Origin: an uncultured Bacteroidia bacterium
GTDB lineage: Bacteria > Bacteroidota > Bacteroidia > Bacteroidales > UBA932
Length of the DNA stretch: 64,000 nt
Assembly: GCA_902778105.1 (NCBI GenBank)
Contig: CACYWN010000008.1
Span: 39,487 to 103,486, forward strand
Direction of reading: 5' to 3'
This document shows positions 1,927-53,503 of this stretch, in pieces. Position 1 is the first letter of the stretch; each line of letters starts with the position of its first letter. The notes under the pieces are model-generated. The model worked only from the letters and a program-made list of their open reading frames with translations. It searched no databases and was not told the origin of the DNA. A program made the translations under genes and the position numbers.

Positions 1927-4362
1927 ATGACTGGAAAATTCCTACTTCCCCTGGCCGGCCTCCTGGTCGCCGCAACCCTGCAGGCGCAGCCTGCCGCAAC
2001 CTCCGCTTCCGGCGGATATCCGATTGACCCCGTCCCTTTCACCAGCGTGAAAGTCACCCCGGATTCTTTCTGGGGGCAGCGCCTGAAGGCATCCCGTGAG
2101 GTCACGATTCCCCTGGCTTTCTCCAAGTGCGAAAGCGAAGGCCGCTACGAAAACTTCGTGAAGGCCGCCAGGCAGATGCATTCGCCGGTGAACCTCGGTT
2201 ACGAGGTGAAGGGCTATTCCTTCGACGACACGGACGTCTATAAGACCATCGAAGGCGCCTCCTACGTGCTCCAGACCTATCCGGACAAGAAGCTGGAGGC
2301 CTATATCGACAGCGTCCTCGTGATCGTCGCCGCGGCGCAGGAGCCGGACGGCTACCTGTACACGGCCCGGACCATGAATCCGGAACATCCGCACGAGTGG
2401 GCGGGCGACCGCCGCTGGGTGAAGGACGAGGAACTCAGCCACGAGCTCTACAACCTCGGCCACATGGTGGAGGGCGCGATCGCCCACTGGCAGGCCACCG
2501 GCAAGCGCAACTTCCTGGACATCGCCATCCGCTATGCGGACTGCGTGGTCCGCGAAGTGGGCTCCGCCTCCGGCCAGGCCCGGGTGGTTCCCGGTCACCA
2601 GATCGCCGAAATGGCCCTCGCGAAGCTGTATCTCGCCACGGGCGAGAAGAAATACCTGGACGAGGCCAAGTTCTTCCTGGACGAGCGCGGTAAGACCGAG
2701 TACCGGGATGAATACAACCAGACGCACCTCCCGGTCCTGGAGCAGAGCGAAGCCGTGGGCCACGCCGTCCGCGCCGCCTACATGTACGCCGGCATGGCCG
2801 ACGTGGCCGCCCTCACGGGGGACCAGGGCTACATCGACGCCATCGACCGCATCTGGGAGAACATCGTCGGGAAGAAGCTGTACATCACCGGCGGCATCGG
2901 CGCCACGAACAACGGCGAGGCCTTCGGGGCCAACTACGAACTCCCGAACATGAGCGCCTACTGCGAGACCTGCGCCGCCATCGGCAACGTGTATGTCAAC
3001 TACCGGATGTTCCTCCTGCACGGCGACGCCAAGTACTACGACGTGCTGGAGCGCACCCTCTACAACGGCCTCATCAGCGGCGTGTCCCTGGAGGGCAACG
3101 GGTTCTTCTATCCCAACCCGCTGGAATCCATCGGACAGCACCAGCGCCAGGCGTGGTTCGGCTGCGCCTGCTGCCCGTCCAACATCTGCCGCTTCATCCC
3201 GTCCGTCCCCGGCTATGTGTATGCCGTGAAGGACAACGCCCTCTATGTCAACCTGTTCATGCCCAATACGATGACCCAGAAGGTGGGCGGCAAGGCCGTC
3301 ACCCTGAGCCAGAAGACGGCGTATCCCTGGAACGGCGACGTGGAGATCACCATCGACAAGACCGCCCTCAAGAAGGAGATGGCCCTGAAGGTCCGTATCC
3401 CCGGCTGGGTCCGGAACGAGACCGTTCCTTCCGACCTGTACACCTATGTGGACGGCAAGCGCCTGGGTTATACCGTGACAGTGAACGGCGTTCCCGTAGA
3501 AAGCAAGCTCGAGCAGGGTTACTTCACCATTTCCCGGAAGTGGAAGAAGGGTGACAAGGTGGAGGTCCACTTTGACATGGAACCCCGCGTGGTGAAGGCT
3601 GACGGCCGCGTGAAGGCCGACGAGGGTCGCGTCGCGGTGGAGAAGGGTCCCGTGGTGTACTGCGCCGAATGGCCGGACAATCCGGGCTTCTCCGTGCGGA
3701 GCGTCCTGATGAACCAGGATCCGACGTTCACCGTGAAGCACTCGGATGAACTCTTCGGCATCGACAAGATCGTCACCAAGGCCCAGACGCTCTCCTTCGG
3801 GAAGGACGGACGCCTGGAGGCGAAGGACGTAGACCTGACGCTTATCCCTTACTACGCCTGGTGCCATCGCGGCAGCGGCGAGATGACCGTGTGGCTGCCG
3901 CGCGAACTGCGCGCCACCCTTCCCACCAAGCCCGCCACCCTGGCCTCCCAGAGCAAGCTGAGCGCTTCTACGCCTACCCGCGCCCTCGGCTCCGTGAGCG
4001 ACCGGCTGGTCCCGCAGCATGACGGCGACCGTTCCGCCCCGTATTACCACTGGTGGCCCAAGCAGGGCGGCACCGAGTGGATCGTCTATGACTTCGCGGC
4101 GCCCGCGAAGGTGTCCCGCAGTTCCGTGTGGTGGTTCGAGGACCAGCCCTGGGGCGGCTGCGGCCTCCCTTCGGCCTGGCGCGTCTACTACAAGGATGCG
4201 GCCGGCAACTGGGTCGAAGTCCAGGATCCTTCCGGCTACCCGGTTGCGAAGGGCCGCGCCTGCGAGGTGCAGTTCACCCCCGTCACCACGTCGGCCATGA
4301 AGCTGGAAGTCGACCTTCCCGCCGAGCTTTCCGCCGGCCTCTTTGAGTGGGAGGTGAAATGA
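1927..4362 (+). CDS. GH127 beta-L-arabinofuranosidase (DUF1680 family)
   Basis: Secreted protein of 811 residues; signal peptide at residues 1-21 ending in LQAQ. The family removes beta-L-arabinofuranose, including from hydroxyproline-linked beta-L-arabino-oligosaccharides (HypBA1 of Bifidobacterium longum). Family hallmarks are visible. TNNGEAFG contains E331, equivalent to the proposed acid/base E322 of HypBA1. CETCAAIG gives E347 and C349, and CACCPSN gives C415 and C416; together these form the zinc/cysteine centre that carries the nucleophilic cysteine. After the (alpha/alpha)6 barrel and beta-sandwich, residues about 680-811 form an extra F5/8-type-C-like carbohydrate-binding region rich in W. 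It is first in a run with a 4-nt overlap to GH51. The family call is firm; the exact linkage is not shown. Confidence 0.93.
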   Translation: MTGKFLLPLAGLLVAATLQAQPAATSASGGYPIDPVPFTSVKVTPDSFWGQRLKASREVTIPLAFSKCESEGRYENFVKAARQMHSPVNLGYEVKGYSFDDTDVYKTIEGASYVLQTYPDKKLEAYIDSVLVIVAAAQEPDGYLYTARTMNPEHPHEWAGDRRWVKDEELSHELYNLGHMVEGAIAHWQATGKRNFLDIAIRYADCVVREVGSASGQARVVPGHQIAEMALAKLYLATGEKKYLDEAKFFLDERGKTEYRDEYNQTHLPVLEQSEAVGHAVRAAYMYAGMADVAALTGDQGYIDAIDRIWENIVGKKLYITGGIGATNNGEAFGANYELPNMSAYCETCAAIGNVYVNYRMFLLHGDAKYYDVLERTLYNGLISGVSLEGNGFFYPNPLESIGQHQRQAWFGCACCPSNICRFIPSVPGYVYAVKDNALYVNLFMPNTMTQKVGGKAVTLSQKTAYPWNGDVEITIDKTALKKEMALKVRIPGWVRNETVPSDLYTYVDGKRLGYTVTVNGVPVESKLEQGYFTISRKWKKGDKVEVHFDMEPRVVKADGRVKADEGRVAVEKGPVVYCAEWPDNPGFSVRSVLMNQDPTFTVKHSDELFGIDKIVTKAQTLSFGKDGRLEAKDVDLTLIPYYAWCHRGSGEMTVWLPRELRATLPTKPATLASQSKLSASTPTRALGSVSDRLVPQHDGDRSAPYYHWWPKQGGTEWIVYDFAAPAKVSRSSVWWFEDQPWGGCGLPSAWRVYYKDAAGNWVEVQDPSGYPVAKGRACEVQFTPVTTSAMKLEVDLPAELSAGLFEWEVK

Positions 4363-6395
4363 GAAAGGGACTGACGCTCTGTTTGTCCGTACTGTTTTTC
4401 ACTACGGCCCTCCCGGCGCAGCCGCGGGGGCCTTATATGGTGGTGGACGAGACGGCGGCGGGAATCCCCGTCCAGCCCACGATGTACGGCATTTTCCTGG
4501 AGGACATCAATTTCGCGGCCGACGGCGGCCTGTATGCGGAGAAGATCTGCAACCGTTCCTTCGAATACGACAATCCCCTGCAGGGGTGGAAGACCTTCGG
4601 CAAGGTGGAGGTCCTCTCGGAGGGCGGCCCCTTTGACCGGAACCCGCATTATGTGCGGCTTCGCTATCCGGGGCATCCGGCCCGTCAGTGCGGGCTGGAG
4701 AACGGGGGCTGGCTGGGCATCGGCCTGGAGGCGGGTGCGGAGTACCGGCTTTCATTCTGGGCCCGGACGGCGGGGAAGCCCCGCACGGTGGGTCTTCTGG
4801 CCGTCCTCTGCGAGCCTTATGGCAACGTCGAGGACCAGGTCCTGGCCGCGGAGGAGGTGACGGTCACTTCTGCCAAATGGACGAAATACGAGGTTGTGCT
4901 TACCGCTTCCCGCACCGTTGCAAAGGGCGCTTTCCGGCTGCTGCTGTGGGATGAGAGCCAGGAAGCCGTGGTGGACCTCGAACATGTCTCCCTGTTCCCT
5001 GTGGACACGTTCCATGGGGATGAGAACGGCCTCCGGAAAGACCTGGCGCAGGCCCTGGCGGACCTCCACCCCGGCATCCTCCGGTTCCCCGGCGGCTGTA
5101 TCGTGGAAGGGACCGACCTGGAGAACCGGTATCAGTGGAAGAATACCGTGGGGCCGGTGGAGAACCGTCCCATCAACATCAACCGATGGAACTACGGTAC
5201 TTTCGAGCGCATGTTCCCCGACTATTACCAGAGCGGCGGCCTGGGCTTCTATGAGTATTTCCGCCTGGCGGAGGAGATGGGCGCCGAGCCCGTCCCCATC
5301 GTCAGCTGCGGCATGGCCTGCCAGTTCCAGAACGATCCGGCGTGGCATCCCAACTGCTCCATGGAAGACCTCGGGACCTATATCCAGGACGCCCTGGACC
5401 TCATCGAATTCGCCAACGGGTCCCCGAAGAGCAAGTGGGGGAAGGTCCGTGCGGAGATGGGCCATCCGGAACCCTTCGGCCTCAAGTACCTGGGCATCGG
5501 CAACGAGCAGTGGGGCGCGGAATTCATCGAACGGTTCGAGCCGTTCATGAAGGCGGTCCGGGCGAAGTATCCCGATATCCGCATCATCGGCACCTCCGGA
5601 CCCTATCTGGGCGGAGAGTGGTTCGACGACCTGTGGAAGGAGATGCGCCGGCTGGGGGTGGACCTCGTGGACGAGCACTATTACAGCAGCGAGCGCTTTT
5701 ACGAGCGCAACGCCGGCCGTTACGACAATTACCCCCGCACCGGTCCCAAGGTCTTTGCGGGCGAATACGCCTGCCACGGCAGCGACGGAAAGAAGTTCAA
5801 CCACTTCAACGCCGCCCTGCTGGAAGCCTCCTTCATGACCGGCCTGGAGCGGAACGCCGACCTGGTGGTCATGTCCAGCTACGCCCCCACCTTCGCCCAT
5901 GTGGACGGGTGGCAGTGGCGTCCCGACCTGATCTGGTTCGACAACCTGCGCGTGATGCGCTCCTGCAGTTACTATGTCCAGCAGCTCTATGCCGCCAACA
6001 AGGGAAGCCGCGTCCTTCCCCTGACGATGGGCGGCAAGCCGGTCGTGAACGCGGGCGACCTGAACGCCACCTGCGCCGTGGATGACGCTACGGGCGACCT
6101 GATTGTCAAGATCGCGAACGTGAGCGCCTATTCCCAGGTTGTCACCTTCGAACTTCCCGGCGGCCTGACCGGGGCCGACAGGACTACCCTCCACAGCGAC
6201 AATCCCATGGAGGAAAACACGCTGGACGAGCCGGAGCGCATCGTCCCCGTCACGGAGGCTCTGGACCTCACGCCGGTGTCCGATCCGGCGAACGAGTGGC
6301 TTCTGGGTGTCCGGGAACTGGATTCCGGCCGCATCGCCTACAGTGAGCGGCTGGGCGGACGGACCTTTGCGGTGTACAGATTCCATCGGAAATGA
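4359..6395 (+). CDS. GH51 alpha-L-arabinofuranosidase
   Basis: Secreted enzyme of 678 residues. I chose the ATG at 4359 because it overlaps the GH127 stop (ATGA), has a GGGAGGTG ribosome-binding site just upstream, and starts a clean signal peptide (MRKGLTLCLSVLFFTTALPA). A GTG at 4347 would only add MGGE. Residues about 60-215 look like a carbohydrate-binding beta-sandwich, followed by the catalytic TIM barrel (LRFPGGCIVEGTD is the family signature). The acid/base is E383 in GIGNEQWG and the probable nucleophile is E469 in FAGEYACH. A C-terminal beta domain follows. It releases terminal alpha-L-arabinofuranose from arabinan, arabinoxylan or hydroxyproline-arabinosides. Translational coupling to GH127 suggests that the two act on the same arabinosylated substrate. 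Confidence 0.92.
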   Translation: MRKGLTLCLSVLFFTTALPAQPRGPYMVVDETAAGIPVQPTMYGIFLEDINFAADGGLYAEKICNRSFEYDNPLQGWKTFGKVEVLSEGGPFDRNPHYVRLRYPGHPARQCGLENGGWLGIGLEAGAEYRLSFWARTAGKPRTVGLLAVLCEPYGNVEDQVLAAEEVTVTSAKWTKYEVVLTASRTVAKGAFRLLLWDESQEAVVDLEHVSLFPVDTFHGDENGLRKDLAQALADLHPGILRFPGGCIVEGTDLENRYQWKNTVGPVENRPININRWNYGTFERMFPDYYQSGGLGFYEYFRLAEEMGAEPVPIVSCGMACQFQNDPAWHPNCSMEDLGTYIQDALDLIEFANGSPKSKWGKVRAEMGHPEPFGLKYLGIGNEQWGAEFIERFEPFMKAVRAKYPDIRIIGTSGPYLGGEWFDDLWKEMRRLGVDLVDEHYYSSERFYERNAGRYDNYPRTGPKVFAGEYACHGSDGKKFNHFNAALLEASFMTGLERNADLVVMSSYAPTFAHVDGWQWRPDLIWFDNLRVMRSCSYYVQQLYAANKGSRVLPLTMGGKPVVNAGDLNATCAVDDATGDLIVKIANVSAYSQVVTFELPGGLTGADRTTLHSDNPMEENTLDEPERIVPVTEALDLTPVSDPANEWLLGVRELDSGRIAYSERLGGRTFAVYRFHRK

Positions 6396-8218
6396 AACTG
6401 GAAAGACTTCTGAACCTCCTTCTCATCGCCGGGTTGGTGGCGGGCGTTTCCGCCTGCCATCCCGATGAAATCGTCGACGAGCGCGGGCAAAGGGTAGAAC
6501 CCGTTCCCGAAGACAAGGACTATCCGGCCCCCGAGGTCGATCCCGCTACGGTCCCTTTCACGGCGGATGCCATCGCACAGGTGGACATCGTGACGGACAA
6601 GGGCACCCCCGTGGATTCCAAGGAAGACTATGTCCCCTGCACCGTGAAAGTGACGGGAGGAGAACCCTCCTGGGCGGCCGAAGTGTCCGGACGGATCCGC
6701 GGCCGGGGCAACTCCACCTGGAACTGGTATCCCAAGAAGCCCTACCGCATCAAGCTGAACACGTCCTCCTCCTTCCTGGGGATGGCGTCGAACAAGGACT
6801 GGGTGCTGCTGGCCGACTATCGGGACGTCACGCACATGATGAACCTCACGGGGTTCTACCTGGCCCGTACGCTGGGCCTTCCCTACACCAACCACGTCCG
6901 TTACGCCTCCGTTTCCCTGAACGGGGAAGACCTGGGCCTGTATATGGTCACCGAGCAGGTGGAGGAAGGCGGAAACCGGGTGCAGCTGGACCCGAAACAG
7001 GGGATCCTGCTGGCCCTGGACATCAACGACGGGCCGGACGACGTGCCGCGGGCGACCGACAATTTCTGGTCCGACGTGTTCGGGATGGCCGCCGCGGTCA
7101 AATTCCCCCGCGACGCCACCACGGCGGACCGGGACCGGGTGAAGGCGGCCTTCGCCCAGTTGGAGGAGGCCATCGATGACATGGACTGGGAAGCCCTCCA
7201 GGAACTGCTGGACGTGGATTCGATGATCCATTACATCCTCGTCCAGGAAATCATCGGCAACGTAGAGGTGGACAACGACCCCAGCATGCGGAGCGGCTTC
7301 CTGTTCCGGCAGGATGACAAGTCCAAGTGGGTGATGGGACCCCTTTGGGACTGTGACGGCGGTTTCAGCTATGACTGGGGCGATATGTACGATTCCAGGG
7401 GATGGGGACATACTTTCTTCGGGAATCAGCGGTATCTGGTGTTCGGGTCGGATCCCTATCGACACCGGGGTGCCTACGGCTCGACGGCCTCGGACTTCTT
7501 CTGCCGCCTGTTCGGCATCCCGGAATTCGTGGAACGGCTCCAGGCCCGCTGGGCCGGGGTGAACGGCACCCTGCTGGACGGCCTCCTGGAATGCCTCGGC
7601 GAGACGGAAGACCTCATCGGCGAGGCTGCGCAGGAGGACATGGACCGCTGGGGCATCCGCAATTACGATCATGCGGAGGAGTACCGGGCTCTGTGCGCCT
7701 GGCTCGCCGGGCGGTTCAGCTATCTGGACGGCGTCATCCGGAATTATCCCCTGGCGCCGGACAGTTCCTCCGGACCTTCCGCCGATGCCGAAATCACCGC
7801 AACCCTGTCTTTCGAAGCCTCTTTTCCGCAGGACGGCCACCATGTCGGCACGTTCCTCTACCTGTCGGATTCCGACAAGCGGACCCTGGCGGAAGGCTTG
7901 GGCGTGCCCTCCTTCGACGAACTCGCCGAACTGTATGAGCTCGGAAGCCTCGGCTTCTGGGCCGTGGAACCGGACGGATCCTTTAATCCGACCAATACGG
8001 CGAATGCCCCCGGCCACTGGTTTGACAGTACGGGCCGGGTGGCGGTCTACGGCCAGAACAGCTTCGTCTACTCCGAGTTCGACTTCTGGTTCGAAGGCTT
8101 CACCCTCGGAAAGCATCCGACCCTCTGCACGCCTGGACAGTACGATGTTTCCCAGGCTTTCGTGTACGGAAAGAAGGCCGTCCGGGTGGATTTCCACATT
8201 ACTATCACGGACGAATAG
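6392..8218 (+). CDS. CotH-kinase-family lipoprotein with C-terminal DUF4859 domain
   Basis: 608 residues, starting in a 4-nt ATGA overlap with GH51. It is a lipoprotein: the lipobox ends VSAC at about residue 22. Residues about 60-420 are a CotH-type fold (KKPYRIKLNT, NHVRYASVSLNGEDLG, GPLWDCDGGFSYDW), the family of spore-coat protein H kinases. Bacteroidales carry many secreted CotH-like proteins of unknown substrate. Residues about 465-608 look like DUF4859 (APGHWFDSTGRVAVYG ... FVYGKKAVRVDFHITI). Similar modules occur in two lipoproteins 17-23 kb downstream (25529-27823 and 29586-31628). Its place between glycosidases and a peptidase suggests action on a glycoprotein or cell-surface protein; whether it phosphorylates anything is unknown. 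Confidence 0.82.
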   Translation: MKLERLLNLLLIAGLVAGVSACHPDEIVDERGQRVEPVPEDKDYPAPEVDPATVPFTADAIAQVDIVTDKGTPVDSKEDYVPCTVKVTGGEPSWAAEVSGRIRGRGNSTWNWYPKKPYRIKLNTSSSFLGMASNKDWVLLADYRDVTHMMNLTGFYLARTLGLPYTNHVRYASVSLNGEDLGLYMVTEQVEEGGNRVQLDPKQGILLALDINDGPDDVPRATDNFWSDVFGMAAAVKFPRDATTADRDRVKAAFAQLEEAIDDMDWEALQELLDVDSMIHYILVQEIIGNVEVDNDPSMRSGFLFRQDDKSKWVMGPLWDCDGGFSYDWGDMYDSRGWGHTFFGNQRYLVFGSDPYRHRGAYGSTASDFFCRLFGIPEFVERLQARWAGVNGTLLDGLLECLGETEDLIGEAAQEDMDRWGIRNYDHAEEYRALCAWLAGRFSYLDGVIRNYPLAPDSSSGPSADAEITATLSFEASFPQDGHHVGTFLYLSDSDKRTLAEGLGVPSFDELAELYELGSLGFWAVEPDGSFNPTNTANAPGHWFDSTGRVAVYGQNSFVYSEFDFWFEGFTLGKHPTLCTPGQYDVSQAFVYGKKAVRVDFHITITDE

Positions 8219-12391: not shown

Positions 12392-12501
12392 ACAGAACCG
12401 GAGATTCTTGCTTTACGGGGCCTTCAGGCGGCATTTTTGGAGAAATTTCATAATAAAATAGACCTTTTTTACAAAAAAATTGGGGGTTGTTTTGCAATTT
12501 T

Positions 12502-12535
12502 GGACCGAAACCAACGGTCCATTTTTTATTTTTTT
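12502..12535 (+). terminator. Intrinsic terminator or leader attenuator before susC
   Basis: GGACCG, a 7-nt loop and CGGTCC are followed by a T-rich tract to 12535. It lies 110 nt after the previous stop and 28 nt before the susC ATG, so it could end the upstream run or act as an attenuator. A near-match -7 box (CAATTTTG, 12495-12502) overlaps its left arm. Confidence 0.5.
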
Positions 12536-12563
12536 GCGACCAACCACTAATCTAACTATTATA

Positions 12564-15644: not shown

Positions 15645-15657
15645 AATGGATCCGATC

Positions 15658-32138: not shown

Positions 32139-32159
32139 ATGTCACAAAAAATAACTGAT

Positions 32160-33830: not shown

Positions 33831-33864
33831 CTCCCCAATAAACCCCGTAATTGATAACACGTCC

Positions 33865-41619: not shown

Positions 41620-41643
41620 GTTGCGAATATACGGAAAAATGCC

Positions 41644-41651
41644 TATCTTTG
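41644..41651 (+). promoter_or_regulatory. Bacteroidales -7 box for the S9 peptidase
   Basis: TATCTTTG matches TAnnTTTG, 17 nt before the ATG at 41669. The 49-nt gap is shared with the leftward activase, for which only a weak box (TATATTCG on the minus strand) is seen. Confidence 0.6.
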
Positions 41652-41668
41652 GAAACAAAGGTTTGATC

Positions 41669-43734: not shown

Positions 43735-44544
43735 ATGGTTTTAAAACGTCTTTCGACCGCATGGATGGCGGTTTCCCTCCTTCTATGCCTGTCCTGTCAG
43801 GAAAAGGTCAACGATCCCGGCAAGGAGGGGAAGGGAAACCAGAATCCGCAGGAACTGGTTGCCGTGCAGGGTTTCTATACCCTGGAGCACGAAGGGTTCA
43901 AGTTCAAGATCCGCGAGGAAGTGTATGCTTCCTCCGCCGCCCAGGACGCCATCGCCCACCTGAAGGAGGACCTGACGGAAATCAACGGCCTCATTCCGGA
44001 ATCGGCCCTGAAGGTCATGAAGAAGAATCCCATCTGGTTGGAGAAGGACCTGACCGACGGTGCCGCCTGGTACCATGCCAACCGGGACTGGCTGGCGGAG
44101 CAGTCGTTGAGCGATTCCCGCTACATGACCGCCAAATGGCATTGCGTGGAACTGTGCAACTATGTCCATTATGTCAGTTGGTCCGACCAGAACCAGCCCT
44201 ACATGGTTCTCCACGAGCTGTGCCATCTCTATCATGACCAGGCGCTTCCGGGCGGTTTCGAGAACCCCGACGTGAAGGCGGCGTACAATGCGGCCATGGC
44301 CGCCGGCAAGTACGTGAATACGGCCTACCGCCTCGACAAGAATACCGTCATCGAACACTACGACGACTATTATCACGCCAAGGTCTATGCCACGACCAAC
44401 CAGATGGAGTACTTCTCCGAGATCTGCGAGGCCTACTGGGGCGAGAACGACTATTATCCCTTCAACTACGACGACCTCAAGGAGTATGATCCGCAGGGCT
44501 TCGCCGTCATGGAGAAGGTCTGGGGAAAGCGCGAGAACAAGTAA
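43735..44544 (+). CDS. Small zincin lipoprotein (HELCH), paralogue of the one at 33865
   Basis: 269 residues; lipobox LLCLSC at residue 21. The core motif is MVLHELCHLYHDQA (H160, E161, H164). MEYFSEICEAYWG follows about 70 residues later and would carry the third ligand, and FNYDDLKEYDPQGF closes the domain. This is the same layout as in the protein at 33865-34734, but the middle parts differ. The residues before the motif (KWHCVELCNYVHYVS) form the edge strand. I do not recognise a named family. It lies between an S9 peptidase and a SusC/SusD pair and was probably made with them, 35 nt before susC. A surface or periplasmic endopeptidase is the likely role. Confidence 0.68.
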   Translation: MVLKRLSTAWMAVSLLLCLSCQEKVNDPGKEGKGNQNPQELVAVQGFYTLEHEGFKFKIREEVYASSAAQDAIAHLKEDLTEINGLIPESALKVMKKNPIWLEKDLTDGAAWYHANRDWLAEQSLSDSRYMTAKWHCVELCNYVHYVSWSDQNQPYMVLHELCHLYHDQALPGGFENPDVKAAYNAAMAAGKYVNTAYRLDKNTVIEHYDDYYHAKVYATTNQMEYFSEICEAYWGENDYYPFNYDDLKEYDPQGFAVMEKVWGKRENK

Positions 44545-44579: not shown

Positions 44580-47500
44580 ATGAAAAAGATGAAGATCTTA
44601 TTCACTGCCTTGGTATGCCTGGTGGCCACGCTCGCCGCCTCCGCACAGAACATCGACGTGCGGGGAACGGTGAAGGATGCCGCCGGAAATCCTGTGGTGG
44701 GCGCGGGTATCGTACTCCGCGGCAACAACAGGGTGTATACCATGAGCGATGCTGCAGGTTCGTTCCACCTTTCGGTCCCGCAGGACGGGGCCCTGGTCGT
44801 GACGTGCCTGGGGTATCAGGAACAGACGGTTTCCGTCGGCGGTCGCCGGGTCATCGACATCGTCCTCGTGGATGACAGCCAGATGCTCGACGAGACTATC
44901 GTCGTGGCCTACGGTACCGCTTCCAAGTCTTCCTTCACCGGTTCCGCGACCGTCGTGAAAAAGGAGGACATCCAGAAGATCGCGACGTCCAACGTGACCC
45001 AGGCCCTTCAGGGTCTCAGCGCGGGCGTCCAGGTCATCAACTCCAGCGGCCAGCCGGGTGACGGCGGATCCATCAACATCCGCGGTATCGGCTCCATGAA
45101 TGCCTCCAGCTCCCCGCTGTACGTGGTGGACGGGGTGGCCTATTCCGGCTACATCAACGCCATCTCCTCCAGCGACATCGAGTCCATGACCGTCCTGAAG
45201 GATGCGGCGGCGACCTCCCTGTACGGCTCCCGCGCCGCGAACGGCGTCATCGTGATCACCACGAAGAAGGGCCAGAGTGAAGATGGCAGGATTTCCTTCC
45301 GCTCCAACCTGGGCTTCGCCTCCATGGCCGTTCCGCTGCCCCGCCAGCTGGCTCCGACCGAGTACGCGTGGATGGCCTGGCAGGGCCTGTACAACGCGGC
45401 CATCGACGGTGGCAACACCCCGGCCGAGGCCGGTACCATCGCGGCGAACAACCTCGCGAACGAACTCAAGATCGTCCCCTGGAATACGCGTAATATCATC
45501 GATTCGACCGGCAAGCTCCTGGTCTCCGACGACGACCTCCTGTGGTACGGTGACTGGCGCGGCGAAATGCTCCAGGTCCGTCCCCGTCAGGAATACAACG
45601 TGGACCTGAGCGGCCGCAAGGGCGACACGAACTACTATTTCTCCGGCGGCTACCTGAACGACAAGGGTATCTTCACCACCCAGCAGTTCGAGCGTATCTC
45701 CGGCCGTGCCAATGTGTCCACGCACGTGAAGAAGTGGCTGGAAGTGGGTACCAACACCTCCTTCTCCCACTCCTATACCGACGCCCCCGCCGGCGACTCC
45801 GTGGTGTGGTTCCTCCGCACGGTTCCTTCCACCTTCAATATCTGGCAGTATGACTACGCGAAGGGCGGCTATGCCACCGACGCGAACGGCGACTACATCT
45901 ACGAGTACGGCTCCGACCGTCCCAACTGGTCCGGCTGGAACATGCTGGCCGATGCGGCCTACAACAAGTACGTCACCAATGTGGACCAGATTTCCACCCG
46001 TAACTTCGCCGAGATCACCTTCATCCCCAACCTGACCTTCCGCAGCACCGTGTCCATCGACTACTACATCACCAAGTACGACGGTTACGGCAGCGCCGAG
46101 CACGGCTACTCCGCCGGTGAAGGCGGCAACGCGCAGAAATCCTACGACCGCAACGTCGCCACCACCTGGACGAACATCCTGTCCTGGAATCCGAAGTTCG
46201 GCGACCACAGCATCGGTGTGATGCTGGGCCAGGAGAGCTACAGCCGCAATGTGGCAGGCGTCTCCGCCGGGCGCAAGGGCTTCCCCTTCGGCGGCCTCTA
46301 CGAACTGAGTTCCGCGGCCGAGCCGGACTATTCCAGCTCCTACGTGGACAACTACCGGCTCCTGTCCCTGTTCAGCCGCGTGGAGTACAACTACGCCGAC
46401 AAGTACTACGTCTCCGGCTCGGTCCGTACCGACGGTTCCTCCAAGTTCTCGCCCATCTCCCGCTGGGGTACCTTCTGGAGTGCCGGCGCTTCCTGGAGAA
46501 TCAACAACGAGGACTTCATGCGCGGAGCCACCTGGATCGACAACCTCAAGCTCAAGGCCAGCTACGGCGCCGTGGGTAACGACAACCTGTCCTCCTGGTA
46601 CTGCTACCAGGGCCTGTACGCCGCCGGTTACAACGACCTCTCGAACGCGGGTGTGGTGATCTCCCGTCTCCCCAACGAGACCCTCAAGTGGGAGACCAAC
46701 CTCCAGTTCAACACGGGTATCGACTTCTCCCTGTTCCGCCGCCTCTCCGGTTCCATCGAGTACTTCGACCGCAAGTCCAAGGACCTGCTGTTCACCATGC
46801 CGATGGCCCTTTCCACCGGTTTCTCCGGTATTGACCGCAACATCGGCGACGTGAAGAACTACGGTGTGGAAGCCACCCTCGACTGGGCGGTCGTGAACCG
46901 GGACTTCTTCAAGTGGAACATGAACTTCAACGCCACCCACTACCGCAACGTGATCACCTCCCTTCCGCAGAAGGAGATGAACGCGGGCGTGTTCAAATGG
47001 CGCGAAGGCCGGAGCCGCTACGACTACTGGGGTCCGGAATACGCCGGCGTGAACCCGGCCAACGGTAACGACCAGTACTGGATGAACATCTACGACGTCG
47101 ATGCCGACGGCAACAGTGTCGTCGTGGACCGGGTTGTGACGGAAAGCACGTCCGACATCCAGGGAGACGAGCAAAAGAAGTATCTCGGCAGCTCCATCCC
47201 GGATGTGTTCGGCGGTTTCACCAACACCTTCCAGATCGGCGGCGTGGACCTCTCCGTGATGCTCTACTACTCGATCGGCGGCCTGATGTACGACACCGAC
47301 TACTCCCAGATGGCGGCCTACCGCCAGGGCTTCCAGCTCCATCCGGACCTGATGAACGCCTGGACGCCGGAGAACCCGACCTCCACCATTCCGAGAATCA
47401 ACCGGAACACAGTGGACGTGTTCTCCACCAAGTACCTGTTTGACAATACCTTCCTCCGCCTGAGGAACGTGACGCTGGGCTATACCTTCCCGAAGCGTCT

Positions 47501-47675
47501 GATGAACAAGGTGGGCATCGACGTACTCCGTCTCTATGTACAGGGGGACAACCTCCTGACCTTCGGCAGCGCCGCCAAGCGCGGCACCGATCCCGAGCAG
47601 AGCGTCTCCGGTACCACGAGCAACCGTTTCCCGACCACCAAGAATGTTTCCTTCGGCGTTCAGATCACTTTATAG
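44580..47675 (+). CDS. SusC-family TonB-dependent receptor
   Basis: 1031 residues; signal peptide MKKMKILFTALVCLVATLAA. CarboxypepD-like domain (VRGTVKDAAGNPVVGAGI), TonB-box region (LDETIVVAYGTASK), plug (NIRGIGSMNASSSPLYVVDG) and a 22-strand barrel ending VSFGVQITL. No C-terminal extension. It pairs with the SusD 12 nt downstream to form a surface importer. The neighbouring genes are peptidases (S9, zincin and S46) with no glycosidase nearby. The cargo may therefore be peptide or glycopeptide rather than free glycan, as known for the RagAB peptide importer of Porphyromonas gingivalis. Confidence 0.95.
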   Translation: MKKMKILFTALVCLVATLAASAQNIDVRGTVKDAAGNPVVGAGIVLRGNNRVYTMSDAAGSFHLSVPQDGALVVTCLGYQEQTVSVGGRRVIDIVLVDDSQMLDETIVVAYGTASKSSFTGSATVVKKEDIQKIATSNVTQALQGLSAGVQVINSSGQPGDGGSINIRGIGSMNASSSPLYVVDGVAYSGYINAISSSDIESMTVLKDAAATSLYGSRAANGVIVITTKKGQSEDGRISFRSNLGFASMAVPLPRQLAPTEYAWMAWQGLYNAAIDGGNTPAEAGTIAANNLANELKIVPWNTRNIIDSTGKLLVSDDDLLWYGDWRGEMLQVRPRQEYNVDLSGRKGDTNYYFSGGYLNDKGIFTTQQFERISGRANVSTHVKKWLEVGTNTSFSHSYTDAPAGDSVVWFLRTVPSTFNIWQYDYAKGGYATDANGDYIYEYGSDRPNWSGWNMLADAAYNKYVTNVDQISTRNFAEITFIPNLTFRSTVSIDYYITKYDGYGSAEHGYSAGEGGNAQKSYDRNVATTWTNILSWNPKFGDHSIGVMLGQESYSRNVAGVSAGRKGFPFGGLYELSSAAEPDYSSSYVDNYRLLSLFSRVEYNYADKYYVSGSVRTDGSSKFSPISRWGTFWSAGASWRINNEDFMRGATWIDNLKLKASYGAVGNDNLSSWYCYQGLYAAGYNDLSNAGVVISRLPNETLKWETNLQFNTGIDFSLFRRLSGSIEYFDRKSKDLLFTMPMALSTGFSGIDRNIGDVKNYGVEATLDWAVVNRDFFKWNMNFNATHYRNVITSLPQKEMNAGVFKWREGRSRYDYWGPEYAGVNPANGNDQYWMNIYDVDADGNSVVVDRVVTESTSDIQGDEQKKYLGSSIPDVFGGFTNTFQIGGVDLSVMLYYSIGGLMYDTDYSQMAAYRQGFQLHPDLMNAWTPENPTSTIPRINRNTVDVFSTKYLFDNTFLRLRNVTLGYTFPKRLMNKVGIDVLRLYVQGDNLLTFGSAAKRGTDPEQSVSGTTSNRFPTTKNVSFGVQITL

Positions 47676-47687: not shown

Positions 47688-49196
47688 ATGAAAAAGATAT
47701 TGATTTGGGCCCTTGCGGCCATCGCCACGCTTTCCGTCGTCTCCTGCAAGGACTTCCTGGAAACCAACCCTACGAGTTCCGTCTCCGACAACCAGGTCTT
47801 CACCTCCATCCAGGGTGCCAATGCGGCCCTGAACGGCTGCTACAACCTGCTTCATTTCAATGACGAGAACTACGGCCGCGGCGACGTATCCGGCTATATC
47901 AGCCAGATCTGCACCTTCGACACCACCGGCGAGGACATCATCGTCAACGGCGGCTGGTACGGCTACGACTACAACTTCTGGGGCCACCAGCGGGGCGACA
48001 TCTTCAAGACGTACACCCTCTGGAACTACTACTATGTGCTCATCAACAACCTGAACAGCGTGATCAAGTACACGCCCGAGATCGAGGGAGCCTCCGAGGC
48101 CGACGTGAACGCGGTCGTGGGACAGGCGCTCGTGATGCGCGGCTGGTCCTACTTCATGCTGGCCCAGCTGTTCCAGCACACCTACCAGCTTTCCTCTCCG
48201 AGGAATATGCCGGGCGTCCCCATCTACACCGAACCCACCACCGACGAGACCGAGGGCCAGCCCCGCGGCACCATCAACGACACCTACGACCAGATCCTGA
48301 AGGACCTGACCGAGGCGGAGACGAAACTCGCCGGTTACAGCCGCCTGGCGAAGAACCACGTGGACCAGTCCGTGTGCCAGGGCATCCTGGCCCGTGTGTA
48401 CCTCGTGATGCAGAACTGGAGCAAGGCGGCCGAATATGCGGCAAAGGCCCGTGCCGGCTATCCGCTTACGAGCAATGCCGACTACACGTCCGGATTCAAC
48501 GACATCAACACCGGTTCCTGGATGTGGGGCCTGATGCAGGACAAGGAGAACAAGCTCTACGGCAACGGCGACTACGGTCCCTTCGCCCTTTGGGCCAACT
48601 GGATCACCCGCAACGGCGGCGACCTGTGGTCCTTCAACTGCTTCTTCCTTCCGGACGCTTTCGTGAACCTGTTCGAGGAAAGTGACATCCGCCGTCAGCA
48701 GATGTTCTACCGTTCCGACCAGGGCAACGGCCTCTGGTGTTCCGGCAAGTTCTATGACAACCTGGACCTCACCGGTTCCTTCGTGTACATGCGCGCCGAG
48801 GAAATGCTCCTCATCGAGGCTGAGGCCAAGGCCCGCGGCGGCGATCCCACCGGCGGTCTGGCCCTCCTGAACCAGTTGCAGTCCATGCGTGGCGCCACGC
48901 CCACGACCAAGACCGGCGACGCCCTCATCGAGGACATCCTCCTGGAGCGCCGCAAGGAGCTCTACGGCGAAGGCTTCGGCTGGCTGGACATCATCCGCAA
49001 CTGCAAGCCCCTTGTGCGGGAAGGCAACCATGCCGACTACAGCGGCCATACGCCCATCCCAGCCAAGTCCTGGGCCTTCGTGTACCAGATCCCGCAGAGC
49101 GAGATCCTGAACAATCCGAACATCAACGGCGATATCTGGCCCGACGGAGACCAGAACCCCTTCGCCCAGTATTATGACAACAAAATCCTGGAGTAA
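47688..49196 (+). CDS. SusD/RagB-family lipoprotein
   Basis: 502 residues; lipobox SVVSC at residue 20 of MKKILIWALAAIATLSVVSC. Typical SusD features: DFLETNPTSSVSDNQVF at the N-terminus, VGQALVMRGWSYFMLAQLF (helical repeat), LLERRKELYGEGFGWLDIIR and the closing VYQIPQSEILNNPNI. It is the lid of the receptor encoded just upstream. It is the smallest SusD of the window, in the size range of RagB. The repeat lipoprotein follows after 3 nt. Confidence 0.94.
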   Translation: MKKILIWALAAIATLSVVSCKDFLETNPTSSVSDNQVFTSIQGANAALNGCYNLLHFNDENYGRGDVSGYISQICTFDTTGEDIIVNGGWYGYDYNFWGHQRGDIFKTYTLWNYYYVLINNLNSVIKYTPEIEGASEADVNAVVGQALVMRGWSYFMLAQLFQHTYQLSSPRNMPGVPIYTEPTTDETEGQPRGTINDTYDQILKDLTEAETKLAGYSRLAKNHVDQSVCQGILARVYLVMQNWSKAAEYAAKARAGYPLTSNADYTSGFNDINTGSWMWGLMQDKENKLYGNGDYGPFALWANWITRNGGDLWSFNCFFLPDAFVNLFEESDIRRQQMFYRSDQGNGLWCSGKFYDNLDLTGSFVYMRAEEMLLIEAEAKARGGDPTGGLALLNQLQSMRGATPTTKTGDALIEDILLERRKELYGEGFGWLDIIRNCKPLVREGNHADYSGHTPIPAKSWAFVYQIPQSEILNNPNINGDIWPDGDQNPFAQYYDNKILE

Positions 49197-49199
49197 GTT

Positions 49200-51197
49200 A
49201 TGAGAGCCATCCATACAATCATTCGGACCCTGGCCCTCGCGGCCGTCCTGCTTCCGCTGGCTTCCTGCGTGGAGAAAGAAGAGCAGCTGCCGGCGCTCTC
49301 CCAGCCGGGAAACATCAACTACGAGGCGGACTTCTGCTCGCTGAGCCTGACCTGGGCTCCGGTCGAGAATGCCGCCCAGTACTACTACAAGCTGGAAAAC
49401 GCCCTGGGCTATACCGTGACTAAGGGTACCACGAAGGAAACCCACGTCACGATCGGCTCCCTGCAGCCCGCCACCACCTATACGGTGCGGATCAAGGCGA
49501 TCCCCGCCGGTGTGGACGTGAACACCTACGCCGCTTCCGACTTCTATGTCACCGAGGCGACGACCGCCGCTCCGAAGTCCTATGACTTCGAGTGGTCCTA
49601 TCCGGCCACCATCTGGTGGTATTATGACACGGACGTCTATCGCGAGACGAAGGGCAAGACCACCTTCGGCTGGGACAAAACCCTGCAGGCCTATGTCATC
49701 CAGGCCTGGGCCGGCGTGATGGGCATGGACATCGTCTTCACCCTGTCCGACAAGGGCGAGTGGCTGATCAACTATGCCGAATCCACGGCTTATACGGGAG
49801 GCCCGGACGCCAACATGGTGGTGGGTCTCGCCCATGGCATCGGCGGAACCTCTGCCGCCACCTGCTGGTTCTATACCAACAACACCGGCAGTTCTCTGGA
49901 ACTCAGTTCCAAGGGCGGCCGCGCCTATGCCTGGATGTTCAATCCGGACGGCAACTGGACGGGCTACTGCGTGGAATTCGGCACGTACGAGCCGGACCCG
50001 CCGGCACCGTTCGTTCCGACGGCCGATGCGGAGGAATCCTGGGCCAAGGACGGCATGGCCTATTTCGAGGGCGAAGAACTGGGCCCGGTGTCCATCGCGT
50101 TCGACGCCGCGACTGGCCAGTACTCCATCGAAAGCTGGTACGGCGTGGAAGGGCACGGCATCGCCTTCACCCGCAACGCCGAAACCGGTCTCTGGCAGAT
50201 GAATACCGAGGCCTCCACCGCCTATATCGACGGTCCTTACGAGGGCACCGGCCTGTATGAACTCTCTCACGGCAAGTACGGCAAGGGCCTCGCCTCCACC
50301 CTCCTGCTCGATCCTTCGGACAGCGGCTATGACGGCGACGGCAAGAACGGCAACGTCTGGGCCCGCGTCACGGATCCTTCCGGCAAGACCGGTACGTACG
50401 AAGTCCGTTGGGTGACCGACATGACCCCGTTCAAGTGGACCTGCGACATCTATGTGGGCGGGAACTACCTGGCCGAGGGCACGATTTCCTACAATGCCGA
50501 GGCGGGCGAGTACACGATCGATTCCTGGCATGGCGTACCCGGTTACGGCATCGTGTTCACGCTCTCCGACAGTGGTGAATGGCTGATCGACTACGAAAAG
50601 TCCACGGCTTACCTGAGCGGTCCTGACGACAACACCGCCCTGGGTCTCGCCCATGGTATCGAAGGCGCGGCCCTGGCCAACTGCTGGTTCTACGAGAACA
50701 ACACGGGCAGCTGGGTCTCCGGCGACAGCTCGGCGGGCAACGCCGGCTGCTGGATGTACTGCTACGACGGCAACTGGGCCGAGTACCGTGTCGAATGGAA
50801 GGAAGGCAGCTGGAGTGCCGATGCCGTCATCTCCGAATGGGGCGGAGAGGTCCCGGACTACACGGAACTGGGTACGGCCACGATTTCTTATGACATCGAA
50901 ACCGGCCAGTACACCATCTCCAACTGGCTCGGGGCCGAAGGCTATTCCATCGTCTTCACGCTTGTGGACGGTGCCTGGCTGCTGGATTGGGAACACTCCA
51001 ACGCCGCGCAGGGCGAGCCTGATGCGAACCAGGCCGTGAGCCTCCTGCATGGCCGCACCGACGGCGCCCAGGCCAACTGCTGGTACTGGATGAACGGCAA
51101 CTACAGCTGGTTCGAAGGCGGCCCCGTGGCCGGCAACACCGGCTGCTGGCTCCGCGACCACAACAACGCCTGGACGGAATACCGCATTACCTGGTAA
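49200..51197 (+). CDS. Repeat lipoprotein with fibronectin-III-like domain, putative surface binding protein
   Basis: 665 residues; lipobox LASC at about residue 22. Residues about 40-120 look like a fibronectin type III domain (LSLTWAPVENAAQYYYKLEN; LQPATTYTVRIKAI). Four copies of an approximately 120-residue beta module follow, recognised by YxIxSWxGVxGxxIVFTL, a STAY motif, GLAHGI and a closing CWFY/GNWxxYxVxW. The second copy is the most divergent. I do not recognise the module. Its position directly after SusC-SusD is that of a SusE/SGBP-type binding lipoprotein, so substrate capture at the surface is the likely role. A REP-like element lies 26 nt behind it. Confidence 0.7.
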   Translation: MRAIHTIIRTLALAAVLLPLASCVEKEEQLPALSQPGNINYEADFCSLSLTWAPVENAAQYYYKLENALGYTVTKGTTKETHVTIGSLQPATTYTVRIKAIPAGVDVNTYAASDFYVTEATTAAPKSYDFEWSYPATIWWYYDTDVYRETKGKTTFGWDKTLQAYVIQAWAGVMGMDIVFTLSDKGEWLINYAESTAYTGGPDANMVVGLAHGIGGTSAATCWFYTNNTGSSLELSSKGGRAYAWMFNPDGNWTGYCVEFGTYEPDPPAPFVPTADAEESWAKDGMAYFEGEELGPVSIAFDAATGQYSIESWYGVEGHGIAFTRNAETGLWQMNTEASTAYIDGPYEGTGLYELSHGKYGKGLASTLLLDPSDSGYDGDGKNGNVWARVTDPSGKTGTYEVRWVTDMTPFKWTCDIYVGGNYLAEGTISYNAEAGEYTIDSWHGVPGYGIVFTLSDSGEWLIDYEKSTAYLSGPDDNTALGLAHGIEGAALANCWFYENNTGSWVSGDSSAGNAGCWMYCYDGNWAEYRVEWKEGSWSADAVISEWGGEVPDYTELGTATISYDIETGQYTISNWLGAEGYSIVFTLVDGAWLLDWEHSNAAQGEPDANQAVSLLHGRTDGAQANCWYWMNGNYSWFEGGPVAGNTGCWLRDHNNAWTEYRITW

Positions 51198-51222
51198 ACA
51201 CCCTCCCTGCCTGTTCAATGAT

Positions 51223-51303
51223 GGAGGTGTCCCTGAAATGGGGACACCTCCTGCGTTTTACCCCGGTTTTTGTCGGAGATGTCCCCGTTTCAGGGACACC
51301 TCC
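51223..51303 (+). repeat. REPIN-like paired palindromes, GGAG(A/G)TGTCC family, copy 1
   Basis: GGAGGTGTCC/GGACACCTCC (51223-51251) and GGAGATGTCC/GGACACCTCC (51275-51303) are two hairpins separated by a 23-nt spacer. A second copy in the opposite orientation lies at 57479-57559. Confidence 0.88.
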
Positions 51304-51337
51304 GACAGTCGGGGTTGCTCCTCCGCGAAATTCTTGT

Positions 51338-51345
51338 TACATTTG
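51338..51345 (+). promoter_or_regulatory. Bacteroidales -7 box for the S46 peptidase
   Basis: TACATTTG matches TAnnTTTG. A GTTG at 51314-51317 gives a 20-nt spacing. The box follows the REPIN and precedes the ATG by 22 nt, so this gene starts a new unit. Confidence 0.6.
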
Positions 51346-51367
51346 CGTAATTATCGACAAAAAGCGT

Positions 51368-53503
51368 ATGAAACGATTCTTTGCTATCCTGGCGGCCCTG
51401 AGCCTGACGCTGACCGCCGCGGCCGACGAGGGAATGTGGCTCCTGCCGCTCCTGCAGAAGATGAACGGCAAGGCCCTTCACGATGCCGGCTGCAAACTTT
51501 CGATGGATGACATCTACAGCATCAACCATTCTTCGCTGAAAGACAATATCGTCCATTTCGGCGGCGGCTGCACGGGCGAGATCATCTCCGCCGAAGGCCT
51601 CATCGTCACCAACCACCACTGCGGCTACAGCAGCATCCAGGCCCTGTCCACCGACGAGCACAACTACCTGATGGACGGCTACTGGGCGATGACCCGCGAC
51701 GGGGAGCTCCCCGCCAAGGGCCTCAGCGTCACCTTCCTCCAGTCGATGACCGACGTTACGGACTTGCTGGCGAAGGCCGAGAAGAAGATCGCGAAGAAGG
51801 TAAGTGATCCCGCCCAGGTGGATTCCCTGATGCAGATCGAGCGCAAGGCCCTCCTCGACAAGGCGCTCAAGGGAAACAAGAACTGCAAGGCCACCTTCAC
51901 CACCTTTTACAACGACAATTACACGTATATCATCGTTACCAAGACGTATACCGACATCCGCTTCGTCGGCGCTCCGCCGGCATCGGTGGGCAAGTTCGGC
52001 GGTGAGACCGACAACTGGATGTGGCCCCGCCACACCGGCGATTTCTCCATGTTCCGCGTGTACGCCGGCAAGGACAATGAGCCGGCCGACTACAGCCCGG
52101 AGAACCGTCCCTACAAGGCCAAGAACCACCTGAAGATATCCCTTGACGGCCTCCAGGAGGGAGACTTCGCGATGATCATGGGCTACCCGGGCCGCACCCA
52201 GCGGTTCCAGACGGCCGCCCAGCTCAAGCAGATGATCAAGGGGCAGCGGATCGCCATCGACGCCCGCACCGTCCGCCAGGACATCATGTGGGAGGCCATG
52301 TGCGCCGACCCGTCCGTCCAGCTCAAGTACGCGAACAAGTATGCCGGTTCCGCCAACGGCTGGAAGAAGTGGCAGGGCGAGGAGCTCGCTTTCCAGAACC
52401 TGAACATCATCGGCCGGGAGGAGCAGAAGGAACGGGACTTTATGGCCTGGGTGAACCAGAAGCCCGACCGCCAGAAAGCCTATGGCGATGCCCTGCAGAA
52501 GATCGAGGACGCCGTCACCGCCTCCGCCGAGGCGGAAAATGCCGTCACCCTCCTTTCCGAAGCCCCTTACCGCATCGAACTCGTGGGCCTCGCCGGCCGT
52601 CTGACGCAGGCTGTCTCCCGGGGCGGACAGGATCCGAAGGTCCTGGAGCAGATGCAGTCCGCCTACCGCGACTATGTCGTGGACCTGGACCGCAAGGAGG
52701 CCGTGGCCCTGCTGGACTTCTACCGCCAGCGGGCTTCCGAGGAGGACTATCCGAAGGGACTCGGCCTGGATTTCGAGGACTTTGGAACCATGGACATCCC
52801 GGCCTATGTGAACTACCTGTTCGACGAGTCCGCCTTCACCTCCTATGACAAGATTGCGGAACTCGTGAATGCCGGCGAATGGGACAAGGTATGGGCCGAT
52901 CCCGCCTATCGTCTGTACACCGCCCTCATCACCGAAATCATGGAACGGTATCCCGCGATGCTGGCTCCGGCCGACGCCATCGACGAGGGGGCCAAGGCCT
53001 TCACCGCCGGTCTCCTGGAGTGGGAGAAGGGCAAGCCTTCCTATCCGGATGCGAATTCCACGATGCGCCTCACCTACGGCCACGTGCTTCCGTATTCCCC
53101 GAAGGACGCCGTCCTGTACAAGCACTATTCCACCGTCAAGGGCGTCCTGGAGAAGGAAGATCCGACGAACCCGGAATTCATTGTCCCTGAGCGCCTCAAG
53201 CAGCTCATCGAGCACCATGCCTTCGGCCGCTATGCCGACCCTTCCGACGGCCTCGTGCATACCTGCTTCCTCACGAACAACGACATCACCGGCGGCAACT
53301 CCGGCTCCCCGGTCCTCAACGCCCGCGGCGAACTCATCGGCCTGGCCTTCGACGGCAACTGGGAGTCCATGTCCTCCGACGTGATGTTCGAACCCGACCT
53401 CCAGCGCTGCATCTGCGTGGACATTCGTTACGTCCTCTTCCTCACCGAGCGCCTCGGCGGCGCCCATCATATCATCCGCGAACTGGATATCGTACAGCGA
53501 TAA
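51368..53503 (+). CDS. S46-family dipeptidyl peptidase, DPP7-like specificity
   Basis: 711 residues from the ATG at 51368; the open frame continues upstream through the REPIN and promoter and is not coding there. Signal peptide MKRFFAILAALSLTLTAAA, then the conserved start DEGMWLLPLLQ. Chymotrypsin-like halves flank a helical domain. The catalytic His is H84 in TNHHCGY, the Asp is in GGETDNWMWPRHTGDF, and the Ser is the first one in GGNSGSPV. Eighteen residues after that Ser is a glycine (FDGNW). That position is Gly in DPP7 and Arg in the Asp/Glu-specific DPP11, so hydrophobic P1 preference is expected. S46 enzymes act in the periplasm to trim oligopeptides into dipeptides. It overlaps no gene and is 1 nt from mrp. 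Confidence 0.92.
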   Translation: MKRFFAILAALSLTLTAAADEGMWLLPLLQKMNGKALHDAGCKLSMDDIYSINHSSLKDNIVHFGGGCTGEIISAEGLIVTNHHCGYSSIQALSTDEHNYLMDGYWAMTRDGELPAKGLSVTFLQSMTDVTDLLAKAEKKIAKKVSDPAQVDSLMQIERKALLDKALKGNKNCKATFTTFYNDNYTYIIVTKTYTDIRFVGAPPASVGKFGGETDNWMWPRHTGDFSMFRVYAGKDNEPADYSPENRPYKAKNHLKISLDGLQEGDFAMIMGYPGRTQRFQTAAQLKQMIKGQRIAIDARTVRQDIMWEAMCADPSVQLKYANKYAGSANGWKKWQGEELAFQNLNIIGREEQKERDFMAWVNQKPDRQKAYGDALQKIEDAVTASAEAENAVTLLSEAPYRIELVGLAGRLTQAVSRGGQDPKVLEQMQSAYRDYVVDLDRKEAVALLDFYRQRASEEDYPKGLGLDFEDFGTMDIPAYVNYLFDESAFTSYDKIAELVNAGEWDKVWADPAYRLYTALITEIMERYPAMLAPADAIDEGAKAFTAGLLEWEKGKPSYPDANSTMRLTYGHVLPYSPKDAVLYKHYSTVKGVLEKEDPTNPEFIVPERLKQLIEHHAFGRYADPSDGLVHTCFLTNNDITGGNSGSPVLNARGELIGLAFDGNWESMSSDVMFEPDLQRCICVDIRYVLFLTERLGGAHHIIRELDIVQR

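Follow-up and report, generated by a model that had tools for sequence, protein, structure and literature searches.

A Bacteroidales gene cluster proposed to use plant hydroxyproline-rich glycoproteins of the extensin type

Gene content of the locus

We analyzed a 64,000-nucleotide stretch of DNA from an uncultured Bacteroidia bacterium of the Bacteroidales (GenBank assembly GCA_902778105.1, contig CACYWN010000008.1, positions 39,487 to 103,486), which is referred to as the window (G000:C8:39487-103486). It carries a gene cluster that combines glycosidases, SusC/SusD importers, metallopeptidases and the hydroxyproline dehydratase HypD, and we interpret the cluster, with a probability of roughly two in three, as a utilization system for plant hydroxyproline-rich glycoproteins (HRGPs) of the extensin type. 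The window reaches the right end of its contig, and the genome measures 2.66 Mb, is 84% complete and has a G+C content of 60%. Forty open reading frames (ORFs) of the window were scanned with Pfam and ten with NCBIfam; lipoboxes and signals were judged by motif match and by eye. G and L numbers are labels for genomes and stretches, respectively. The genes of the locus are as follows.

1..1863, minus: hybrid two-component system (HTCS)-type regulator, N-terminal part (whole ORF 1007 aa, C8:38326-41349 = L038:2327-5350 minus)
1927..4362, plus: GH127 beta-L-arabinofuranosidase (PF07944, 412.7 bits, with PF20736/PF20737, the M and C domains; N-terminus looks secreted)
4347..6395, plus: GH51 alpha-L-arabinofuranosidase (PF22848, PF06964; 6zps MgGH51, 278 bits)
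6392..8218, plus: CotH-kinase lipoprotein with DUF4859 (PF08757, PF16151)
8234..9760, plus: M61-type peptidase lipoprotein, HEYFH (PF05299, PF17899)
9770..12391, plus: DUF5695 protein (PF18951)
12480..15644, plus: SusC1 TonB-dependent importer (Plug/TonB barrel)
15646..17361, plus: SusD1 (PF07980, PF14322)
17367..19859, plus: GH27 alpha-galactosidase fused to a DUF6055 domain, HELGH (PF16499, 241 bits; PF19527, 467 bits)
20078..23572, plus: SusC2 with C-terminal OmpA domain (PF07715, PF00593, PF00691)
23557..25509, plus: SusD2 (PF07980)
25529..27823, plus: DUF4859 lipoprotein (PF16151)
27980..29566, plus: HEGIH protein with DUF6055-like C-terminal part (PF19527, E 1.3e-4, 21.5 bits, below the cut-off of 27; hhalign 82.7%)
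29547..31628, plus: DUF6055 metallopeptidase lipoprotein, HEIGH (PF19527, 376 bits)
31926..33785, plus: PruA, pyrroline-5-carboxylate (P5C; glutamate semialdehyde) dehydrogenase (TIGR01236, 751.9 bits, above the cut-off of 613.6)
33820..34734, plus: HEFAH lipoprotein (HExxH), candidate ATLF/M34-like metallopeptidase
34763..36136, plus: M24 Xaa-Pro aminopeptidase/prolidase (PF00557 and AMP_N)
36186..38585, plus: HypD, trans-4-hydroxy-L-proline dehydratase (NF043068, 1146.3 bits, cut-off 1100; PDB 6vxc, 906 bits)
40693..41670, minus: radical-SAM glycyl-radical activase (TIGR02494, 306 bits, above 174; NF043069, 306 bits, below 425)
41489..43678, plus: S9 prolyl-oligopeptidase-family peptidase (PF00326; 8wt1, 136 bits)
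43735..44544, plus: HELCH lipoprotein (hhalign to the HEFAH family 95.5%, E 1.5e-8)
44580..47675, plus: SusC3 (PF07715)
47688..49196, plus: SusD3 (PF14322, PF07980)
49200..51197, plus: lipoprotein with a weak fn3 match (PF00041, 22.7 bits, below the cut-off of 25)
51218..53503, plus: S46 dipeptidyl-peptidase (PF10459, 713 bits)

Each of the families named in a preliminary description of the window (GH127, GH51, GH27, S9, S46, M61, M24 and pruA) was recovered by Pfam or NCBIfam, and the three SusC/SusD importers that it listed were found as three tandem pairs. Together with GH127, GH51 and GH27, these pairs give the make-up of a polysaccharide utilization locus (PUL). A regulator of the kind usual for PULs is also present: the HTCS-like ORF lies divergent from the GH127 gene, runs upstream out of the window, has Reg_prop, Y_Y_Y and HTH_18/AraC domains in its C-terminal part, and would control the locus. 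A C69 peptidase, a second PF07944 protein and two further DUF6055 proteins lie upstream of the window, where the locus seems to start. A tRNA scan and an Rfam scan (gathering threshold) of the window gave no match.

The GH127 matched PDB entry 6ex6, which we take to be BT3674, at 1043.5 bits, followed by 4qjy (labelled GH127, 425.7 bits), 3wkw (355.3 bits) and 5opj (presumably a GH146 enzyme, 72.6 bits). The HypBA1 chains, like 4qjy, rank behind 6ex6. Its Cys3-Glu zinc site is present, with ETC at 347 and CACC at 413 aligned with 4qjy, the places of the residues within the two motifs being our assumption. This type of site in GH127 is named in the excerpt of PMC10850190. The GH27 is nearest to alpha-galactosidases (6f4c, 357 bits). 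Its fusion to DUF6055 is variable: GH27 stands alone in G005 (412 aa), and the two parts are separate adjoining genes in L043, where the order is SusC1-SusD1-GH27-DUF6055, and in L045 and L105.

HypD exceeded the cut-off of its own model and carries ten of ten active-site residues (H160, D278, S334, D339, F340, C434, E436, Y450, T645 and G765 in C. difficile numbering), if G765 is counted among them, as we assume. Nine of the ten come from the excerpt of PMC7077986. The activase was best matched by the HypD-specific model NF043069 but scored below its cut-off, passing only that of the general model TIGR02494; the gene probably serves HypD. It lies beyond an apparently non-coding gap of 2.1 kb (38586-40692) in which a 176-nt repeat occurs three times and 20-nt units stand in tandem, with 8 terminator-like hairpins in 38500-40800 against 2.6 expected, and it is inverted relative to G003. 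The annotated PruA ORF probably starts about 75 codons too early, because most matches in other genomes begin about 75 codons later. No lipobox or signal was seen in PruA, M24 or HypD, and M24 is probably cytoplasmic. The top PDB matches of the S46 peptidase are Asp/Glu-specific S46 enzymes, and its FDGNWE motif is present; S46 and the Mrp gene may merely border the locus.

At least five secreted HExxH proteins had been proposed, and six were found, one being the M61 peptidase and one the C-terminal domain of the GH27 protein. The motif occurs in 6 of 25 locus proteins, against a mean of 0.44 and a maximum of 3 in 500 residue-shuffled sets. In DUF6055, H136, E137 and H140 and a further glutamate, E161, are invariant in 25 sequences. 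The DUF6055 model (pLDDT 92.9, C-terminal part mostly strands) retrieved M1-type aminopeptidases in Foldseek with E 2.7e-5 and prob 1.00, but with a TMq of only 0.37, which suggests a gluzincin-like fold; the DUF6055 profile found no credible match in the PDB by sequence. A DUF6055 protein is tied to MEROPS family M106 in the excerpt of PMC11241649.

The HEFAH lipoprotein is possibly ATLF/M34-like. Two of its orthologues matched PF07737 (ATLF) at 23.9 and 24.5 bits, below the cut-off of 27.4, while the window protein gave no match to this model, and M90 is a competing weak match (E 0.31 in the window protein, 4.2e-4 in L044). The top Foldseek rows of its model (pLDDT 71.9) are ATLF-family chains, with E 0.04 and a TMq of about 0.3. 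The Pro-Pro endopeptidases belong to family M34 (excerpt of PMC9147577). The likeness of the orthologues to these enzymes is weak and sub-threshold; Pro-Pro cleavage by an M34-like HEFAH protein would suit a Ser-Hyp4 backbone (Hyp, hydroxyproline). By profile alignment the HELCH lipoprotein is related to the HEFAH family, and its homologues (27-34%) adjoin HEFAH homologues in L204, L210 and L211; the HELCH protein found no match in the PDB.

The DUF5695 protein weakly matches 5no8, BACCELL_00875 (E 8.4e-8), and is possibly carbohydrate-active. An OmpA domain at the C-terminus of a SusC protein is unusual; the SusC2 alignment covers all 1164 residues in G038 and only residues 1-1001 in G003. 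Farther downstream, at 57606-61426 on the minus strand, lie two adjoining DUF3857 proteins, one with a transglutaminase-like core.

Linkage of the two halves in relatives

The sample of the genus comprised 61 genomes (G000-G060, taken by label number), in which HypD was counted at matches of at least 540 bits and PruA at E <= 1e-60. By their marker genes, most members of the genus are without the locus. Among the matches listed, HypD was found in G000, G003, G005, G008 and G038, and DUF6055 in G000, G003, G005, G007, G024 and G038; four of the five HypD genomes thus also carry DUF6055 (Fisher p 1.4e-4, a value that, like the others given here, ignores ancestry). The HEFAH protein was found in six genomes, exactly the six with DUF6055. 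PruA was present in eight, namely G000, G003, G005, G038 and four without HypD. In G008, the bin of another species, M24 and HypD, 99% identical to those of the window, lie on a 3.2-kb contig (G008:C50, L012) with no other HypD in the genome, which is possibly the result of misbinning or recent transfer.

In both G038 and G005, GH127-GH51-CotH-M61-GH27 lie on one contig with PruA-HEFAH lipoprotein-M24-HypD. The gene order is kept in G038, where SusC/D1 is unmatched between M61 and GH27 and DUF5695 has moved; in the shorter G005, GH27 is followed by a DPPIV-type S9 peptidase and then by PruA-HEFAH-M24-HypD up to the contig end. In G003, the first contig carries a second PF07944 protein, GH127, a SusC-like gene, GH27, SusC2/D2, DUF4859, DUF6055 and part of PruA, and another contig carries the rest of PruA, HEFAH, M24, HypD, the activase, S9, Mrp and S46. 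Two reading frames are needed to cover HypD in G003 and in G005, as well as GH127 in G003 (L011, L013, L216). The less complete genomes G007 and G024 (61% and 58%) have no HypD of at least 540 bits and contain rearranged versions: GH127 adjoins M24, and GH51 adjoins HEFAH, which adjoins S9, in G024, and SusCD-DUF6055-HEGIH-GH51-HEFAH occur in G007. Co-location in relatives, whose absence would by the preliminary description have refuted its reading, held in G038 and G005 and in part in G003.

The order was sampled with 393 genomes; HypD scored over the cut-off in 129 of them and DUF6055 in 24. The neighborhoods of HypD outside the genus were examined in 89 stretches of at most 20 kb, some ended by contig ends, which cover part of the 129 HypD-positive genomes and of which 88 hold HypD. 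Among these 88, M24 was near HypD in 9, C69 in 11, a DPPIV-type S9 in 7, HEFAH in 1 and GH127 in 2. The two with GH127 are G444, whose 13-kb stretch holds two PF07944 proteins (a PF07944 protein, a DPPIV-type S9, HEFAH, M24, HypD, the activase and GH127), and G091 (GH127, GH43, DPPIV S9 and HypD). The argument for one system rests on the gene make-up of these two loci and not on the rate of 2 in 88.

In a tree of 94 HypD proteins, made by a quick method and midpoint-rooted for drawing, the window HypD belongs to a clade with 18 members (support 100); G444 and G091 belong to the other clade, with 76 members, where G091 groups with L195 (SH-aLRT 99) and G444 with L142 (92). The placement firmly indicates that HypD is associated with these partners in at least two HypD clades. 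The most simple reading would be three separate joinings. A change count, with the 86 ungrouped rows omitted, requires no more than one change for the pair of G091 and G444, and there may instead have been a single old association with many losses.

The HEFAH family occurs in 15 of the 393 genomes, 8 of them with DUF6055 over the cut-off (p 2.8e-7) and 11 with HypD over the cut-off (p 1.3e-3), kinship being uncorrected in both. In G391, M24-HEFAH and a homologue of the activase lie where a contig ends.

A scan for DUF6055 gave at least 510 confirmed stretches, and the best 80 were used, among which two pairs share one genome each and several overlap genomes used in the other comparisons. Within these best 80, the genes near DUF6055 included GH127 (15), SusC2/D2 (24), CotH (13), GH27 (5), M24 (4), HEFAH (4) and HypD (2, both in Labilibaculum). 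The loci of Bacteroides and Parabacteroides (L043, L044, L047, L051, L062 and G279) contain SusCD, DUF6055, GH127, GH27, M24, CotH or HEFAH, and their glycosidase and peptidase sets overlap those of the window. No description of these loci was found in open-license papers. In Labilibaculum (L103, L115), DUF6055 lies near HypD and the activase, with GH97 between them in L103; these loci perhaps serve another Hyp-rich protein source.

Proposed mechanism and rival explanations

The sequences establish the gene families, the catalytic residues of HypD and GH127, the gene order and its conservation; the substrate, cell location, order of action and regulation we infer. Surface lipoprotein metallopeptidases (the DUF6055 gluzincins, HEFAH and HELCH) would open the Hyp/Pro-rich backbone, and the SusC/SusD pairs would bring glycopeptides in. 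In the periplasm, GH51 would take off terminal alpha-arabinofuranose, GH127, a candidate for action on beta-Araf-Hyp, would take off beta-arabinofuranose down to hydroxyproline, and GH27 would take alpha-galactose off serine; the serine of extensin carries alpha-galactose. The S9, S46 and M61 peptidases would trim the peptides, and a cytoplasmic M24 would cleave Xaa-Pro/Xaa-Hyp bonds. HypD would then dehydrate hydroxyproline to P5C, and PruA would oxidize P5C to glutamate. proC occurs in 21 of the 61 genus genomes, a patchy distribution, and was not found in the 84%-complete genome of the window, so glutamate via PruA is likely to be the outlet for hydroxyproline.

Several observations weigh against this interpretation. 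The structure closest to the GH127 is the presumed arabinogalactan enzyme 6ex6. GH51, CotH, M61, DUF5695 and HEGIH were unmatched on the two G003 contigs, both of which were searched whole; the two-frame HypD and GH127 genes may reflect assembly error or decay, and linkage among congeners may be plain descent. GH127 near HypD in only 2 of 88 neighborhoods is by itself weak and may not differ much from chance. No HypD was seen in the fetched stretches of G279 and the Bacteroides loci of the same make-up. Of 16 HEFAH stretches, four (L203, L209, L212, L214) have no other window homologue and two (L201, L205) have SusC as the only one; the HEFAH of L203 is 52% identical and not a distant copy, and therefore the partners are not always present. 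No inner-membrane peptide or hydroxyproline transporter was matched among the scanned ORFs, and proC was not found in the 84%-complete genome. The preliminary description had itself reported neither a hydroxyproline transporter nor proC in the window, and its word "complete" goes too far.

That an ordinary arabinose/galactose locus adjoins an unrelated hydroxyproline cluster by chance is quite unlikely in our judgment. HypD is common in the order and has no GH127 nearby in 86 of the 88 neighborhoods, and PruA occurs without HypD in four genomes of the genus. However, the two halves are linked in G038 and in the shorter G005 version, where a single gene separates GH27 from PruA, the halves in G003 are joined through the contig break inside PruA, and GH127 adjoins M24 in G024. 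Plain adjacency was set aside because HypDs from outside the window's clade, those of G444 and G091, have the same partners. The idea of one pathway, which the preliminary description had based on proximity, is thereby strengthened.

The main rival substrate is an arabinogalactan protein (AGP) or a similar Hyp-rich glycoprotein, in which case GH127 and GH51 would trim the arabinose of type II arabinogalactan, GH27 would remove galactose and DUF5695 would act on the glycan; we consider this unlikely. AGP cores need enzymes of the GH43, GH16, GH30, GH35 and GH2 types, and none of these was matched by Pfam in the 40 window ORFs, including the GH43 exo-beta-1,3-galactanase that marks an AGP-type locus with its core enzymes. 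The same scan found no match to core enzymes of pectin or galactomannan breakdown, and the AGP, collagen and galactomannan readings were set aside as their partner enzymes are unmatched. The best GH127 structure, which we assumed above to be BT3674, speaks for AGP. BT3674 helps degrade larch arabinogalactan (excerpt of PMC10850190), and BACCELL_00875, which DUF5695 weakly resembles, is a gum arabic PL27 lyase (excerpt of PMC8377490). Nevertheless, the versions in G444 and G091 also pair GH127 with proline peptidases, although G091 does carry GH43. Collagen or gelatin as the source of hydroxyproline, with the glycosidases serving other glycans, seems very improbable. Collagen is not known to carry arabinofuranose, and GH127 lies within the same conserved block. 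In its favor, a C. difficile paper connects hydroxyproline with collagen (excerpt of PMC9044972), a fungal M106/DUF6055 peptidase is a predicted collagenase (excerpt of PMC11241649), and HypD in Labilibaculum lies near DUF6055 with GH97 and without a GH127 homologue in the stretch. An extensin-type glycoprotein would thus be the best single fit as a substrate; the naming of extensin in the preliminary description is plausible, and it is not demonstrable from sequence.

Relation to known systems and meaning

The locus appears to be a new PUL variant coupled to radical hydroxyproline catabolism. Compared with Bacteroides AGP loci of the BT3674 type, it has a closely related GH127, provided that 6ex6 is BT3674, but lacks matched galactan-core enzymes and has HypD and peptidases. 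Relative to the other 88 HypD neighborhoods, where homologues of its peptidases are occasional and GH127 is rare, the window holds both. Its HypD shares active-site residues with the clostridial and gut pathway of HypD and activase (excerpt of PMC7077986). The HypBA1-HypBA2-HypAA system (GH127, GH121, GH43) of Bifidobacterium longum and Xanthomonas euvesicatoria takes arabinofurano-oligosaccharides off the hydroxyproline of extensin and solanaceous lectin, and in Xanthomonas a prolyl oligopeptidase gene (a pseudogene) adjoins it; SusC/SusD, HypD, PruA and metallopeptidases, all present in the window, are unmentioned in the excerpt of PMC6085000 that describes these systems. The window has a GH51, and GH43 is unmatched in the 40 ORFs, which were scanned without a model specific to GH121. 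HypBA1 frees arabinose from Ara1-3-Hyp (same excerpt), and therefore GH121 is not indispensable. For Latescibacteria, an HRGP proposal based on genomes involves GH127 and general peptidases, with HypD unmentioned in the excerpt of PMC4454575. In the open-license literature, which excludes subscription papers and preprints, we found no paper joining HypD with extensin and none linking bacterial arabinoside removal to wall-protein breakdown and hydroxyproline use.

A wider proposal is possible and is made tentatively. The locus may represent a class of glycoprotein-utilization loci in the Bacteroidales, in which DUF6055 proteins (here fused to GH27) and possibly ATLF/M34-like lipoproteins would recognize glycosylated Hyp/Pro-rich backbones, HypD would have been recruited from at least two clades, most simply three times, and both the sugar and the protein of extensin would be consumed.

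Extensins make up a crosslinked, recalcitrant protein component of the plant wall, and the removal of their arabinosides by bacteria is known. If the interpretation as an HRGP system is true, one gut-bacterial gene cluster would join feeding on sugar and on protein through HRGP deglycosylation, cutting and hydroxyproline use, and two under-described peptidase families would gain a likely substrate. Gut hydroxyproline metabolism would have a dietary plant source besides collagen, and there would be named genes with which to test which organisms feed on wall protein in the guts of herbivores.

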